A model generated the notes under the pieces. That model was not told where the DNA came from, did not search any database, and was given only the letters and a program-made list of their open reading frames with translations. A stretch of DNA of 64,000 bases from Kroppenstedtia eburnea (GTDB lineage: Bacteria > Bacillota > Bacilli > Thermoactinomycetales > DSM-45169): positions 2,728,001-2,792,000 of the forward strand of contig NZ_CP048103.1 in NCBI RefSeq assembly GCF_013282215.1, given 5' to 3'. The translations under genes and the position numbers were made by a program. Within the stretch, counting starts at the first letter, position 1. Every line of letters starts with the position of its first letter. Shown here one piece after another: positions 16,607 through 33,710 of this stretch.

Positions 16607-16787
16607 AAGAGCCCCATTATGCCGTGGCTCCCTAAGTTTTGAACCTGCTCGTGGCAGGTGGGTGCCCTGCACCCGTGTTAACAAGTCCCGTAAAGGGCAT
16701 TCGCGCTCACGGATGACGCAGGCTCCCGCTTAAAAGGTGTTGGCTCAAAACTGTCGGTGGTTCACGAACATCTCAGGGCTCTTTTTG
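16607..16787 (+). ncRNA. ssrS: 6S RNA
   Basis: About 180 bases of non-coding sequence next to aspS, where Bacillus has bsrA. Closing stem AGAGCCC (16608-16614) pairs with GGGCTCT (16776-16782), followed by a T5 tract. The 5' side of the central bubble reads CCTAAGTTTTGAACC (16631-16645), closely like the Bacillus 6S-1 template region for product RNA, which fixes the plus orientation. Further arms GTGGGTGCCCTGCACCC and the 3' strand CGAACATCTCAGGGCTC complete the rod. It binds sigma-A RNA polymerase and mimics an open promoter (family knowledge). Confidence 0.83.
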
Positions 16788-20353: not shown

Positions 20354-20760
20354 AATCCATATCTGGGGCCGGGCCGGTCGGGGTTGGGTTTCACATTCCA
20401 TTCCGTTGTTCTTCCGAGCCAAAGTCATTCCATGTGAAACCCAACCCTCCCATAGCGAGACCGGGGAGCGACAGCGACCCAAGGCGAGACTTGTGCTGGT
20501 GAGTGCATAGCGAGACCGGGGAGCGACAGCGACCCAAGGCGAGACTTGTGCTGGTGAGTGCATAGCGAGACCGGGGAGCGACAGCGACCCTGGCGAGACT
20601 TGTACTGGTGAGTGCATAGCGAGACCGGGAACGGAGTGACCTTGGCGAGACTTGTGCCCTGTGGGTATGACGATGTTTTCACCACGCTTCCAAAATGTAT
20701 CTTGCATTGATTCAAGACAGATGGTTTCCTTTGACACTTGAATTTCCAGACATGCCCTGA
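20354..20760 (+). repeat. Family-1 intergenic repeat, copy C (four units, extended tail)
   Basis: Arms GGTTGGGTTTCACAT (20382-20396) and CATGTGAAACCCAACCCT (20431-20448) are followed by four tandem units, then the right end TTTTCACCACGCTTCC (20676-20691) and a tail ending GACATGCCCTGA. The left side, ATCCATATCTGGGGCCGGGCC, matches copy B. It is the largest copy in the window. Confidence 0.8.
20451..20673 (+). repeat. Tandem array of a 54/55-bp unit
   Basis: Units start with CATAGCGAGACCGGG at 20451, 20506, 20561 and 20615. Each runs through GGCGAGACTTGT and ends CTGGTGAGTG, except the last, which exits as GCCCTGTGGGTATGA. The two flanks CGAGACCGGG and GGCGAGACTTGT are constant, while the 12-14 bases between them vary. 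Confidence 0.9.
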
Positions 20761-22389: not shown

Positions 22390-22418
22390 TCGACTCCCCA
22401 CATAGGAAATGGTAGAAT
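22390..22418 (+). promoter_or_regulatory. Probable promoter of the aminomutase cluster
   Basis: TCGACT, 17-base spacer, TAGAAT (22413-22418). It would leave a leader of about 200 bases before the ATG at 22630. A second -35-like TTGACA at 22464 has only a weak -10. The leader contains a CCCC-TTCTT-GGGG type hairpin but no riboswitch I can name. Confidence 0.45.
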
Positions 22419-22629
22419 ATAGATTGGAAGGATATACAACTCAGGTGAAAACCAGGCAACCACTTGACAGAATCGTCCCAAAAATGAATAGGGTGCCGCC
22501 CGTCACGCAGACCGCACTTCCCAACGTCCTGAGGAATTCACGGAAATCCTAGCTCGGCCCCCTTCTTCGGGGTGGAAACTGCCCGCCTGTCTCTGGCCTT
22601 TCCTTACACCTATTTTGGGAGGGAAAACA

Positions 22630-23763
22630 ATGAACAACGTTACGAATGAAAAGGTTCATCGTACAGAGAGAGAAATGGTGTTGGATGTAATCGGCAAATT
22701 CCGGACCAAAATGAGTCCCGCTCTGTCCCGGCTCGCCAAACAATCCGATCCCGTCGCCAAACAGTTTATTCCCAGTCCCTATGAAGCGCTGGATTTCGGT
22801 ACGGAAAAACCTTTTGAAGAAGGGAAGAACAATCACGGGATTTACGGATTGGAACGTGTATATGAAGACCGGGCGGTACTCACCCCGTACTTTGAATGCT
22901 CCGCTTATTGCCGGTACTGCTTTAAAAAATCCCGTACTCTGGCCGGTTCTGCCAAACGAATGAGCGATGAGGACATTGACAAGGCCATTCGTTTTATAGA
23001 ATCGGACAGCCGTATCCGTACAGTTTTGATCACCGGGGGAGACCCCTTGGTGGATCCCCGGTTGCTGGAGAAAGTATTGGATAAAGTTTTTCCGATTCCG
23101 CATATCAGAAACATACGAATCGGCACCCGAAACATCTTGTTCTCCCCTGAGAAAGTCACACCGGATTTGGCGAAAATGATTGCCCGCTATCAACAGATAG
23201 ACTATGACGAACCACGGAAGTCGAAAAACATTTCCATCGGTTTATCGCTGAACCATGTGGATGAATTGACACCTGAAGTGGTCCGTGCATATCAACGATT
23301 GATCCGTGAAGGCATTACAGTCCGGGGGCAAGTCGTCTTGTTGAAAGGAATCAATGATTCCGTCAGTGCAATGCGGGAACTGTTGGAGACCTTTCTCTGC
23401 ACGGGGATCGTTCCGTATTACCTGTTCCATTGCATGCCCGTGGTCGGTGCCAAACACTTCCGCACTTCTGTTCAAAAGGGACTCGATCTATTGCAGGAAC
23501 TCTCTCCATACTCCGGAACCACCACTTTTCAGTATGTATATGTTACCCCCATTGGAAAGCATCGCATCGCACCCGGACATCAACTTGAATATGTAAAGAT
23601 CGACGGTTCCCGTTATATTCGTTCCACAACTCCCTATAAGGCAGCTGATTTCCTCGAATTCTCCGACAACAGGGAGTTGCCTCCTCTCCACGGTATCAAC
23701 GAAGAGGGATATATCACCTCCCATTACCTGGATGGTCATGATGAAGAGGAGATCCTGGCATGA
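22630..23763 (+). CDS. KamA-like radical SAM aminomutase
   Basis: A 377-residue member of the lysine 2,3-aminomutase (KamA) family. The radical SAM cluster motif is CSAYCRYCF (about residues 92-100). SAM-binding ITGGDPLVDPRLLEKVL and GTRNILFSPEKVTPDL follow, and the probable PLP lysine lies in TPIGKHRIAPG. KamA moves an alpha-amino group to the beta carbon. In the lysine enzyme an Asp precedes the PLP-lysine loop (VVDAPGGGGK); here the same place reads VYVTPIGK, so the substrate may not be lysine. ATG 22630 with GGGAGGG is the start. It overlaps the ATP-grasp gene by 4 bases, implying a shared pathway. Confidence 0.82.
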   Translation: MNNVTNEKVHRTEREMVLDVIGKFRTKMSPALSRLAKQSDPVAKQFIPSPYEALDFGTEKPFEEGKNNHGIYGLERVYEDRAVLTPYFECSAYCRYCFKKSRTLAGSAKRMSDEDIDKAIRFIESDSRIRTVLITGGDPLVDPRLLEKVLDKVFPIPHIRNIRIGTRNILFSPEKVTPDLAKMIARYQQIDYDEPRKSKNISIGLSLNHVDELTPEVVRAYQRLIREGITVRGQVVLLKGINDSVSAMRELLETFLCTGIVPYYLFHCMPVVGAKHFRTSVQKGLDLLQELSPYSGTTTFQYVYVTPIGKHRIAPGHQLEYVKIDGSRYIRSTTPYKAADFLEFSDNRELPPLHGINEEGYITSHYLDGHDEEEILA

Positions 23764-25121
23764 AAAAAGCCTTTGTCTTTATTGAAAACCAAGCCTTCAA
23801 CACATTGCTGGAACTGGCGGCGCGAACCCGGGAACGGGGGTACACCAACCTCCTCATTTTCCGGAAAATGCAGCCTCATGAAAAGGAAAGGTTAAACGAA
23901 TACGAACAGCAACACCGACACCCTCTGTTTGAACAAATTTGTGAGGTGGAACGTTGGGACTACAGCCGGCTTCGGGATCTGGTCGAGGAAATGGCGGGAA
24001 AACAGCCTTTGGCCGGAATTTTGACTGTCAGCGGTTTATTTACTGCAGACGGTTTGCTCGGAGCCTCCGTCGCCCAAATTGCATCGGAAAAGGGGCTCCC
24101 TTCCCAATCCGTTGACGGGTTGTACCGTTCCAATAATAAATATCTGACACGAGACGCCTTGCGCCACGCGGGTCTGCAAACCGTCGATTTCGGCTTGGCC
24201 ACAGAGGAAACATCTCTGATCGAACATGCCCGGCGCATTGGCTATCCCGTGATACTGAAACCGATCAACGGCTGTGCTTCTCAGCTGGTGATCAAGTGCG
24301 AGAACGAGCAGGAGCTCCTGCAAGGGTATCGGTCAGCCCTCAAGAAACTCCCCCGATCCATTTACCGGGACCTGTATGCTTGCACTCACCGATTTGCCGA
24401 CAAAAAGGGAAATCAGATCATCTTTGATCCCCTGCGGACCATGCTCGTTGAGAAATATATCGAAGGTCCTGAGGCCAGCATTGAAATCGTGGCCACAGAA
24501 ACGGATGTGATCCCGCTGTTGGTTCACGACAAGGTCTTGGTGAGCGAAGGGGATCGAGTGGTGTACGAGCATTTACTGGTGGTTCCGCCGGTGAGGTTTA
24601 CCCCGGAAGAATTGGAAAACATCAGGCGGTATGCTGTTGAGGTGGCCAAAGCAACCGGTATTAAAAACTCGCTTTGCCATGTTGAAATTCGCTACGATAA
24701 ACATTCAGGCCCTCAACTGCTGGAAATCAACCCCAGGGTGGGTGGAATGCTGGTTACAAAAAGCTTGGAAACGATGATCGGATTTCATGCGTTGGACGCG
24801 ATGGTCGACCTTGCACTGGGGTCGTTTCAGCCCCGTCCATACCCTTGCACAACGGATCAGTACGGCATGTTTACCCTGTATCCGCCGCATGCCGGGTATT
24901 TCGAGCGTGTGGAAGGGCTGGACAAGCTGAATCGCATCCCGGGAATTTTGTCCTCAACGCTGCTGTTTCCGGAAGGAACCCAAATTCACGGAGATGATGA
25001 AGAGGTATTTCTTCTCATGTGCTGGGTAAAAGGGGAAACTTACGAAGAAATACGGGACATCTACGAACAGGCAAAAAGAGAAGTCCGGTTTCATGTGAAA
25101 AAGGAAGCACCCGCCCGATAG
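23760..25121 (+). CDS. ATP-grasp carboxylate-amine ligase
   Basis: A 453-residue ATP-grasp enzyme related to BacD-type dipeptide ligases and carboxylase-like proteins. The N-terminal PreATP-grasp region (MKKAFVFIENQAFNTLLELA) is followed by the ATP-binding lysine in YPVILKPINGCASQ (about 165), LVEKYIEGPEASIEIV, and the metal ligands in LLEINPRVGGML (about 322). Such enzymes form an acyl phosphate and join it to an amine, commonly making peptides or amides. Its start codon overlaps the aminomutase stop (ATGA). A beta-amino acid as substrate is an inference from that coupling. Confidence 0.85.
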   Translation: MKKAFVFIENQAFNTLLELAARTRERGYTNLLIFRKMQPHEKERLNEYEQQHRHPLFEQICEVERWDYSRLRDLVEEMAGKQPLAGILTVSGLFTADGLLGASVAQIASEKGLPSQSVDGLYRSNNKYLTRDALRHAGLQTVDFGLATEETSLIEHARRIGYPVILKPINGCASQLVIKCENEQELLQGYRSALKKLPRSIYRDLYACTHRFADKKGNQIIFDPLRTMLVEKYIEGPEASIEIVATETDVIPLLVHDKVLVSEGDRVVYEHLLVVPPVRFTPEELENIRRYAVEVAKATGIKNSLCHVEIRYDKHSGPQLLEINPRVGGMLVTKSLETMIGFHALDAMVDLALGSFQPRPYPCTTDQYGMFTLYPPHAGYFERVEGLDKLNRIPGILSSTLLFPEGTQIHGDDEEVFLLMCWVKGETYEEIRDIYEQAKREVRFHVKKEAPAR

Positions 25122-25228
25122 CAGGGCGGCTCGCTTCCCCATCAAGTGGACATTAAAAAATCCGCCCTTGATCCCATGAATATCCGTCAGGAAAAACAGG
25201 ACGTGCACAAAGGAGTGGATCCATCGGA

Positions 25229-26500
25229 ATGGGTATGGTCTTCAAACAGCGTTCGCCGATATTCAACCTTTATGTGCTGGCTGCAGGTAAAGGGATCTCC
25301 GATATCGGCAATTTCTTAAATATGGTGGCTTTTAATCTGTATGTCTTGTTTTTGACAGACAGCGCCTTGATTATGGGTCTCTTTATGGCCATACGATTGT
25401 TTGGTGGTTTTTTCTGCGGTTTTTTCTCCGGTATGTTGGCCGATCGAATGGATCGAAAGACCTTGATGATTTCTTCCGATCTGATTCGGTGTCTCGCTTT
25501 GCTCCTGTTGGTGTTGGCCCCGGACACTTGGCAGTTGCCTCTTCTGTTGATCACGTCTTTTTTGTTGGGTGCTTTCGGACAAGTTTTTAATGTTTCTTTA
25601 CAATCCAGCATCCCCGTGATCTTCGGCCAAGAGCATCGGGTAAAAGCGAATGCGGTCCTGAATGCCCTGCAATCCATCGGAATGGTCATCGGAACGCTGA
25701 CAGCCAGTCTCATCATTGCTTTTTGGGGGTACAAAACCGTTTTTCTGATCGATGCCCTCACTTTTTTGATTTCCGGCCTGGTCCTGGCCATCCTTCCGAT
25801 TCAAACGAAAGCGGAGACGAAATCTCCTCAGGAAGCGACCGACAAGGATACAGGATTTTTCATGGAAATAAAACTTCTTTCCCGATACCTGGGGGCTTTA
25901 CCCATTCTGTGGAGTTTGATGATGATTCGTCTCATCGATACCTTTGGTTCCGCTTCACATAATGTGGGGATCCCCGTTTTCTCCGCCCAGCTGTCACCCG
26001 AAAACCCCTCCTTCTATGTCGGGCTCATTTGGGCAACCTGGGCCGTCGGTAATCTGATCGGATCCCGCGGAACCATCAAATGGTTTAAAACTGACAAAAC
26101 TGTGATCAGTGAAATCGCCTTTATCTGTTCGACCTTCTTGATGTCTGCTTTTTTTATTCTTCTTTTCTGGGGTGAACACTGGCTGACCATTTTACCCTTC
26201 GCTTTGCTGGCGGGAGTTGCGGACGGTATATCCGCCATCTGTTTTAATTCACGCCTGCAACATGAACCGGATCACATCCGTGGACGGGTATTCGGTATTG
26301 CTTCTTCCTTTCAGACCGTCGGCTTCGGTGTGGGAATGATCATTTGTTCCCCGTTGTTGGAAATGATCTCCCCCTTCAAAGTTGCGGCCATCATGCATGG
26401 GATTCCGATATTCTTATGTGGATGGTTTATCCTGCGCCATATGAACCGATGGAAATACACACTTCGGTCCGCTGATCAAAAACAGGTGGAACACGGATAA
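25229..26500 (+). CDS. MFS exporter
   Basis: A 423-residue major facilitator with about twelve helices, of the MdtH/EntS-like drug or siderophore efflux type. The cytoplasmic loop motif GMLADRMDRKTLMI (residues 69-82) is motif A. The gene follows the ATP-grasp ligase by 107 bases on the same strand, and no terminator is evident in the gap. Export of, or self-protection against, the cluster product is the natural reading. The ribosome site AAGGAG is 13 bases from ATG 25229, longer than usual. Confidence 0.85.
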   Translation: MGMVFKQRSPIFNLYVLAAGKGISDIGNFLNMVAFNLYVLFLTDSALIMGLFMAIRLFGGFFCGFFSGMLADRMDRKTLMISSDLIRCLALLLLVLAPDTWQLPLLLITSFLLGAFGQVFNVSLQSSIPVIFGQEHRVKANAVLNALQSIGMVIGTLTASLIIAFWGYKTVFLIDALTFLISGLVLAILPIQTKAETKSPQEATDKDTGFFMEIKLLSRYLGALPILWSLMMIRLIDTFGSASHNVGIPVFSAQLSPENPSFYVGLIWATWAVGNLIGSRGTIKWFKTDKTVISEIAFICSTFLMSAFFILLFWGEHWLTILPFALLAGVADGISAICFNSRLQHEPDHIRGRVFGIASSFQTVGFGVGMIICSPLLEMISPFKVAAIMHGIPIFLCGWFILRHMNRWKYTLRSADQKQVEHG

Positions 26501-26897: not shown

Positions 26898-27218
26898 ATG
26901 GGTCCGGAGTACCCGGAGAAAAAAGGATCCCTGTCCTGCCTGCAATCAGACCTGTTGCGACAACTCATCCGTCGCAAAAAACGGATTCTCATCCCGATGC
27001 TCCTCTTTTTCGCGATATTTTCCTTTTGTCTGCCCTTGTCCGTCAGTCTGTATCCTCACCAGATGAGCCGTCCCGCTCCCTGGCTCCGGGTTCCCTGGGG
27101 ATGGCTTTACGCCTTTGCACAGATTTTTTTGACCTGGTTGTGGGGATGGCTGTATTGGAGCGCTGCCAAAACCTTTGATCGCTTGGCGGAAGAGATCCGA
27201 CAGAGAGGGGAAACATGA
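26898..27218 (+). CDS. DUF485-type membrane subunit, copy 1
   Basis: A 106-residue protein with two membrane helices (PMLLFFAIFSFCLPLSVSL and WLYAFAQIFLTWLWGWLYWSA) and a basic N-terminus. This matches the small DUF485 partner that precedes ActP-type symporters. Its sequence is divergent (Trp-rich second helix). It overlaps the symporter start by 4 bases. Function is inferred from the family pairing. Confidence 0.7.
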   Translation: MGPEYPEKKGSLSCLQSDLLRQLIRRKKRILIPMLLFFAIFSFCLPLSVSLYPHQMSRPAPWLRVPWGWLYAFAQIFLTWLWGWLYWSAAKTFDRLAEEIRQRGET

Positions 27219-28767
27219 ACCGAACCTATTTTCTGTTATTTCTGTTTATTGTGGGAAGCACGTTGATTATCACCCACTGGGCCGCCCAGCGAAAACAGAC
27301 GACCCGCCAGTTTTTTATTGCGGACAGCAGTTTGAGTGGTTTCCAGAACGGGATGGCCATCGCCGGTGACTATATCAGCGCCGCCTCCTTTCTGGGCATC
27401 ACCGGTGCGATCGCACTTGGAGGTTATGACGGTTTTTTATATTCCATCGGCTTTCTCGTCTCCTATCTGCTCGTGCTGCTGGTGATCGCGGAGCCGGTGC
27501 GCCATCTGGGAAAGTACTCCCTGGCAGACGTGATCTGTGCCCGTTTCCCGGGTAATCGCATTCGGCTGGCGGTGGCCGCCGTCACTTTTACCATCTCCAT
27601 TTTTTACATGATTCCACAACTGGTGGCCACCGGGCTGTTGGTCCGTCTGCTGCTGGGAATCGACTACTCGGTCTCCGTACTGGTGATCGGCAGTCTGATG
27701 ACCGTCTATGTGGTCTTCGGGGGAATGGTCGCCACATCGTGGGTCCAGATTATCAAGACTGTTCTCCTGATGTCGGGAATCTTTTTGCTTTCATTGATGC
27801 TGCTGTCCCGTTTCGATTGGCAGTTGCCTCTGTTATTGCAACACGTGAAGGCGGGAACCCCCCTTGGAGACCGTTTTTTTAGCCCGGGACATCTCTTCTC
27901 CACTCCCCTGGAAGCCCTTTCCCTCCATCTGACGTTGTTTCTCGGAACGGCGGGCCTTCCTCATATCTTGATTCGCTTCTTCACGGTGAAAGATGCCGTG
28001 GCGGTTCGGCGTTCGGTGATTACGGCCAGTTGGATCATCGGCCTCTTTTATGTGATGACCCTGGCCCTCGGATTGGGAACTGTGGCCCTGGTGGGGTGGC
28101 AGCGATTAGTGGAGACCGATCCGACGGGGAATCTGGCGGCGCCCTTGTTGGCCAGGGAGTTGGGTGGAGATTTCCTGATGGCTTTTATCGCAGCCATCGC
28201 CTTTGCCACAATCGTGGCAGTGGTCACCGGACTCGTTATTTCCGCAACCACTTCCCTCTCCCACGATATTTATAATCAGATCTTCAGGAACAGCACCGCC
28301 ACAGAAAAGAGCAATTGCGGATCGCAAAGTGGACGGCGGGGGGGATCGGCTTGATTTCCATCCTGTTTTCACTGGGATTGGAAAACATCAATGTGGCCTT
28401 TCTCGTCTCTCTTACCTTCGTGATTGCCGCCAGTGCCAATCTGCCGGTGATCCTGTTCACTCTGTATTGGAGGCGCTTCAATGAAACCGGCGTGATGGTC
28501 GGACTGACGAGCGGATTTCTGGCCTCCCTGGTTGCAGTGATCACCGGCCCCCATATTATGAACCCCGGGCATGGCTGGATCACCACGGAACCCCTTTTCC
28601 CCCTGTTAAACCCCGGCGTGGTCGCAATCCCCGTCGGTTTTGCCGGCGCTTTTTTGGGGACGGTTCTGTCCCGCCGGCCGGTGGATGAGGAAGGCTTTTC
28701 CCGTGTGCTGGTACAGGCCCAGACCGGGATGGATCCGGGGAATCCAGTCGGGAGGAGACCGTCGTGA
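27215..28767 (+). pseudogene. Sodium/solute symporter (ActP-like) with a -1 frameshift
   Basis: Acetate-type SSS symporter, about 517 residues if read through. The first frame (27215-28354) gives MNRTYFLLFLFIVGSTLII and continues to SHDIYNQIFRNSTATEK. The rest of the protein continues in the -1 frame from 28309 (EQLRIAKWTAGGIGLIS ... ANLPVILFTLYWRRF). The break is in an AAAA run at 28305-28308; one extra A would restore the frame. The intact paralogue at 31839 aligns across the joint. The downstream frame still overlaps the kinase start. A recent inactivation, sequencing error or ribosomal slippage are all possible. Confidence 0.8.
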
Positions 28768-33467: not shown

Positions 33468-33710
33468 AAAAGCATTGTGATTTAGTGCGTTCTTCGATGG
33501 TTGGGATTGGGTTTCACATGTCGTTTTCGTTGTTCTGACGATCCAAAATCACTCCATGTGAAACCCAACCCTCCGTGCATAGCGAGACCGGGAACGGAGT
33601 GACCCTGGCGAGACTTGTACTGGTGAGTGCATAGCGAGACCGGGAACGGAGTGACCCTGGCGAGACTTGTGCCCTATGGGTATGAATGACTTTTTCACAA
33701 CACTTCTAAA
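33468..33710 (+). repeat. Family-1 intergenic repeat, copy D (two units)
   Basis: Left end AAAGCATTGTGA and right end TTCACAACACTTCTAAA are imperfect inverted repeats. Arms are GGGATTGGGTTTCACATG (33503-33520) and CATGTGAAACCCAACCC (33555-33571). Two tandem units start with CATAGCGAGACCGGG near 33578 and 33630. The copy begins 13 bases after the symporter terminator. Confidence 0.85.

Follow-up and report, generated by a model that had tools for sequence, protein, structure and literature searches.

Kroppenstedtia eburnea carries a KamA-type radical SAM gene, an ATP-grasp ligase gene and an MFS gene in direct succession, raising the question of whether so small a group can make and export a product of its own. 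We examined a window of 64,000 nucleotides (G000:C1:2728001-2792000) from the closed 3.56 Mb genome of this bacterium, with K. guangzhouensis as a close relative for comparison. Our analysis makes it reasonably probable that the three genes form a minimal natural-product pathway, in which a dipeptide containing a β-amino acid would be made from a non-basic amino acid and exported, both the catalysis and the product being deduced from the proteins encoded.

Organization of the locus

All three genes were found where the original prediction had placed them, consecutive and in one orientation (Table 1), with the KamA stop codon (TGA, 23761-23763) and the ligase start codon (ATG, 23760-23762) sharing the four-base overlap ATGA. 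The KamA gene most likely starts at the ATG at 22630, behind the sequence GGGAGGG, the mechanical ORF opening at a TTG at 22615. Between the ligase stop and the MFS start lie 107 bases, and a pattern scan of the + strand detected nothing resembling a terminator between the three genes. The candidate promoter is proposed from its match to the consensus, such matches being fewer over the whole region than in shuffled sequences, and the block containing it is kept in K. guangzhouensis. No riboswitch, T-box included, from which the amino acid might have been identified, was matched at the Rfam gathering score in the 200-base leader or in eight related loci; a GGGGTGG stretch in the leader resembled a T-box but does not fit one.

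Table 1. Features of the three-gene locus, in positions of the window
Feature	Positions	Strand	Evidence
Candidate sigma-A promoter, TCGACT-17-TAGAAT, extended -10 TG	22390-22418	+	Pattern scan; upstream of operon
KamA-type radical SAM/PLP protein, 377 aa, putative amino acid 2,3-aminomutase, new subfamily	22630-23763	+	Pfam, 2a5h, invariant residues, alignment, tree
ATP-grasp amino acid ligase, 453 aa, L-amino acid ligase (LAL) fold	23760-25121	+	Pfam, 3vot by sequence and fold, then BacD
MFS exporter, 423 aa, TIGR00900/MefA/EntS-like drug or siderophore efflux type	25229-26500	+	Pfam MFS_1, NCBIfam, co-conservation

The flanking genes were assigned to other functions downstream, where a symporter gene is followed by a sensor/response pair; upstream, DUF4363 and DUF421/YetF genes lie on the opposite strand. 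At 27215-28767 a cation/acetate-symporter-like gene is broken into two overlapping frames of 379 and 150 aa, and its orthologue in K. guangzhouensis is a single 517-aa frame (L045:12481-14034), suggesting either a recent frameshift or a sequencing error. Elsewhere in the window, a 6S/SsrS RNA (16607-16782, - strand) adjoins aspS, an arrangement also present in K. guangzhouensis, and two tandem arrays (20451-20657, 55-base units; 33582-33666, 26-base units) have the common core GCGAGACCGGG... and possibly represent one dispersed GC-rich repeat family of the Kroppenstedtia genome.

The two enzymes and the transporter

The KamA-type protein scored above the Pfam cut-off for Radical_SAM, and its best solved relative, by both sequence and predicted fold, is lysine 2,3-aminomutase (LAM, AblA/KamA; 2a5h), which the fold model (pLDDT 81.8) matched with an E value of 4.6e-23, the next fold having an E value of 7e-7. 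The two proteins share their fold, the CxxxCxxC cluster motif (C90, C94 and C97, invariant in the subfamily), the PLP lysine (LAM K337, corresponding to the invariant K310, aligned in a GK motif) and the PLP-phosphate Arg/Tyr/Arg region. They differ, however, by an extra loop near residues 189-199 and at three positions of the substrate site: LAM D293 and D330 are replaced by Met269 and Thr306, respectively, both invariant across the aligned subfamily, and R134, the carboxylate Arg, is replaced by Lys99, which is invariant in the cassette clade. The roles assigned to these residues are those established for LAM from its structure, in which D293 and D330 hold the epsilon-ammonium group of the substrate and R134 its carboxylate.

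The original prediction drew attention to the missing Asp before the PLP lysine. Thr306 does occupy the position of LAM D330, but its weight as the key specificity change is reduced because arginine 2,3-aminomutase (BlsG) has Thr there too; since BlsG nevertheless keeps Asp at the D293 position, the change of D293 to Met is the informative one. This change and that of R134 to Lys, neither of which the original prediction had pointed out, are more telling than Thr306, although the latter of the two is conservative and thus only lowers certainty. With such substrate residues the protein cannot be a simple lysine enzyme, in agreement with the earlier suggestion that the amino acid may be a different one. 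Judged from these residues, the substrate probably lacks a positively charged side chain and is neutral; lysine, arginine and glutamate are all improbable substrates, and an uncharged amino acid is the likely one.

Comparisons with the NCBIfam models also set the protein apart. Specifically, it scored 171.4 bits against TIGR03820 (AblA, lysine 2,3-aminomutase; cut-off 525.4, control LAM 627.8), 185 against TIGR04468 (BlsG; cut-off 600), 190 against TIGR04368 (glutamate 2,3-aminomutase; cut-off 650) and 173 against the subfamily model TIGR00238 (cut-off 199). Because it lies under every NCBIfam cut-off for KamA proteins, assigning it aminomutase chemistry extrapolates from the family. In the tree, the subfamily formed one clade (100/99) apart from LAM, the separate clade of arginine aminomutase and the AblA-like proteins, with long branches that leave the deeper placement unsure. 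The KamA of a Diapherotrites archaeon (L053:7992-9113) is sister to the cassette clade and retains Arg at the R134 position; its genome yielded no member of the ATP-grasp ligase family of the cassette. In the Kroppenstedtia genome, outside the window, a KamA-family gene of the AblA-like type (G000:C1:2833627-2834464, - strand; loci L003/L004) is broken into two frames.

The ligase exceeded the Pfam cut-offs for ATP-grasp_4 (61.7 versus 27) and LAL_C2 (35.7 versus 29.4). Its fold model (pLDDT 92.5) matched BL00235 (3vot) best, with an E value of 2.6e-29, and BacD (YwfE; 3vmm), at rank 4-5, came next among ligases. With both enzymes it shares the fold, the LAL_C2 domain, the metal-binding Glu/Asn residues (E309, E322 and N324) and the catalytic Arg (R326), all four residues being invariant, whereas identity over the fold alignment is about 20% or less and the cassette proteins constitute a subfamily of their own. 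No named NCBIfam equivalog matched the ligase, the alanine-anticapsin ligase model giving a score of 19 against a cut-off of 850. The subfamily is closed: all members found scored at least 529 bits and every one lies inside a cassette, whereas other ATP-grasp proteins of those genomes scored at most 124; among 398 Bacillota, only the genome of the window has a member. The ligase is therefore not an orthologue of an enzyme of primary metabolism, and its sequence and modelled fold suggest that it joins two amino acids via an acyl phosphate.

The MFS protein scored above the Pfam cut-off for MFS_1; its best NCBIfam model was TIGR00900, under the cut-off of that model, and it also resembles the enterobactin exporter EntS. 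Membership of the MFS family fixes neither the direction of transport nor the cargo.

Recurrence and inheritance of the cassette

In a first scan, limited to one genome per species, we found relatives of the KamA-type protein in Caldalkalibacillus, Brevibacillus laterosporus, two Tumebacillus, Archangium, a deltaproteobacterial bin and a Pseudolabrys bin, with a more distant relative in the Diapherotrites archaeon. A profile built from nine KamA relatives gave at least 423 bits for the subfamily versus at most 175 for the ordinary KamA proteins that those genomes also encode, and located the subfamily in 1 of 398 Bacillota, in 13 of 399 Bacilli genomes (8 of 146 genera), in 2 of 195 Myxococcota and in 1 of 398 sampled Pseudomonadota, the last being the genome used as the centre of the sample. 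By order, it was present in 3 of 39 genomes for that of Brevibacillus and in 4 of 14 for that of Tumebacillus; the plasmid collection held no close KamA relative at 1e-60.

We read the neighbourhoods of 17 KamA members from Bacillota, Myxococcota and Pseudomonadota, leaving out the archaeon. The ligase gene adjoins the KamA gene in 16 of these loci and an MFS gene is present in 15, the full triad occurring in 14, with the MFS gene of one locus cut by a contig end. The association first proposed from a single genome thus recurs in others, and adjacency of KamA and ligase in 16 of 17 members from three phyla is more than chance would give. The outer neighbours vary among the loci, except between the two Kroppenstedtia genomes (near-identical Brevibacillus were left out of this comparison). 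Pairwise distances of the three proteins were highly correlated (Mantel r 0.956, 0.984 and 0.976; no permutation out of 2000 reached these values), shared species history contributing to these values. In addition, dN/dS between the two Kroppenstedtia species was approximately 0.06, 0.14 and 0.09 for the three genes, indicating purifying selection on all of them. The cassette is most likely a horizontally scattered, self-contained mini-pathway, and we regard this as part of the best explanation of the data.

Several loci depart from the common form. In L051, a JmjC_2 oxygenase takes the place of the MFS gene, and L092 has no adjoining MFS gene of the cassette type; tailoring oxygenases in the variants are JmjC_2 in Pseudolabrys and 2OG-Fe_Oxy_2 in Burkholderia. 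In three Tumebacillus loci the exporter gene is followed by one or two additional copies of the ligase gene, as would be expected if longer peptides were made there. In L091 (genome G1179), the KamA gene is followed directly by the MFS gene, and no homologue of the ligase was found in the 2.28 of 3.4 Mb of this genome that was read, including the whole L091 contig, suggesting either that this locus can do without the ligase or that the gene has been lost. Such a locus is what would be seen if a free β-amino acid, or a simple derivative of it, were the exported product and the ligase had a side role in resistance, precursor protection or loading. We hold this to be unlikely, however, given that the ligase gene is present in all the other loci, usually between the KamA and MFS genes and translationally coupled, and that it has multiplied in Tumebacillus.

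The distribution also bears on a role in osmolyte synthesis, in which a β-amino acid or dipeptide would be kept inside the cell as a solute, like N-epsilon-acetyl-β-lysine, the MFS protein being incidental or an importer. KamA enzymes do work with AblB in osmolyte synthesis, and some hosts live in stressful habitats (Caldalkalibacillus, L046). Nevertheless, no AblB-like gene adjoins the cassette, its absence having been recognized at the outset, so that the KamA-type protein differs from LAM in lacking this partner as well as the lysine-binding residues, and a second, canonical KamA (AblA), which groups with lysine 2,3-aminomutase in the tree, is retained elsewhere in the Kroppenstedtia genome. 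Furthermore, the MFS gene inherited with the enzymes is of the efflux type and the distribution is very patchy. We therefore consider an osmolyte pathway improbable; the patchy spread, the efflux-type transporter, the optional oxygenases and the extra ligases together fit secondary metabolism better.

Related systems and the proposed pathway

The original prediction also held that no three-gene pathway of this form had been described, but clusters holding the same types of enzymes are on record. In Pseudomonas syringae pv. phaseolicola, the Pbo cluster contains pboE (MFS), pboF (lysine-2,3-aminomutase-like), pboG (L-amino acid ligase-like), pboH (2OG-Fe dioxygenase) and pboI (MFS) (PMC8473136); pboE to pboI form one operon required for phaseolotoxin production in that strain, and the Pbo product is taken to be a secondary metabolite (PMC8473136; PMC11278893). 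Compared by gene types, both systems thus have an MFS protein, a KamA-like radical SAM protein and a LAL-like ATP-grasp protein, in one operon in the case of Pbo; however, the Pbo genes are part of an NRPS/PKS-like cluster of 16 genes that also encodes a 2OG-Fe dioxygenase, whereas the Kroppenstedtia locus has three genes and no carrier or adenylation domains. A blasticidin-type cluster (NZ_CP108290) likewise contains BlsG, followed within a few kb by an aminotransferase, an ATP-dependent carboxylate-amine ligase and an MFS protein. As in the cassette, the gene of a KamA-type enzyme lies close to those of an MFS protein and a ligase of the ATP-grasp type, and the β-amino acid made by BlsG enters an amide, as predicted for that of the cassette, but the blasticidin S pathway uses arginine and a nucleoside partner and has many more genes, and BlsG belongs to another clade.

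Two further cases came from our own searches. In Burkholderia cenocepacia (NZ_CP091013, L072:8514-13112), a stand-alone KamA-ligase-2OG-Fe_Oxy_2-MFS operon, unannotated in the record, has its genes in the pboF-G-H-I order by type. On conjugative plasmid p4 of Rhizobium ruizarguesonis (L075:4326-6933), a LAL-like ATP-grasp gene immediately precedes a KamA gene that belongs to another clade, which reads as an independent KamA-ligase pairing. Taken with the Pbo and blasticidin-type clusters, these cases indicate that the pairing of KamA, ATP-grasp ligase and MFS is already known. The literature search for a three-gene pathway returned only the Pbo papers as relevant; it covered open-access texts, which are sparse in older enzymology, so that absence from them is weak evidence. 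Within the literature searched, a carrier-free form of three genes, built on this KamA subfamily, seems not to have been described.

The cassette might be viewed as a stripped-down pboE-I, yielding a building block or signal that regulates or modifies other metabolism and is not an antibiotic. All three enzyme types do stand together in one Pbo operon, for which a signalling role has so far only been proposed (PMC8473136), and the Burkholderia operon matches both the gene-type order of pboF-I and, with Met at the LAM D293 position, the cassette protein. However, the likeness to PboF and PboG was drawn from gene types, the KamA of the Burkholderia operon shares no more than 25% identity and sits on a long branch that does not belong to the cassette clade, and the three-gene form comes without NRPS or PKS genes. 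We accordingly give this reading a low probability.

We favour instead the minimal pathway for an exported dipeptide. In the first step, the KamA-type enzyme, with SAM, a [4Fe-4S] cluster and PLP, would shift the α-amino group of an L-amino acid to the β carbon. The ligase would then activate one amino acid as an acyl phosphate and couple a second to it, with the β-amino acid as one or both partners, giving a protease-resistant dipeptide, which the MFS pump would carry out of the cell. The putative product may be an antibiotic, a signal or a metallophore. More tentatively, and with somewhat less than even confidence, we propose that the KamA-type proteins represent a new class, a neutral amino acid 2,3-aminomutase with Met and Thr in place of both Asp residues, acting in a two-enzyme, carrier-free route to exported β-dipeptides that has spread between phyla as a three-gene cassette.

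To our knowledge, the substrates of known KamA enzymes are lysine, arginine and glutamate, and a subfamily of other specificity would therefore widen the routes to β-amino acids, which are useful building blocks. With one tailoring enzyme, one ligase and one pump, the cassette comes close to the smallest possible natural-product pathway, one easily missed by cluster finders keyed on NRPS or PKS genes and simple enough for testing in a laboratory Bacillus. It may, in addition, serve as a clean model of the unexplained pboF-pboG step in Pseudomonas.
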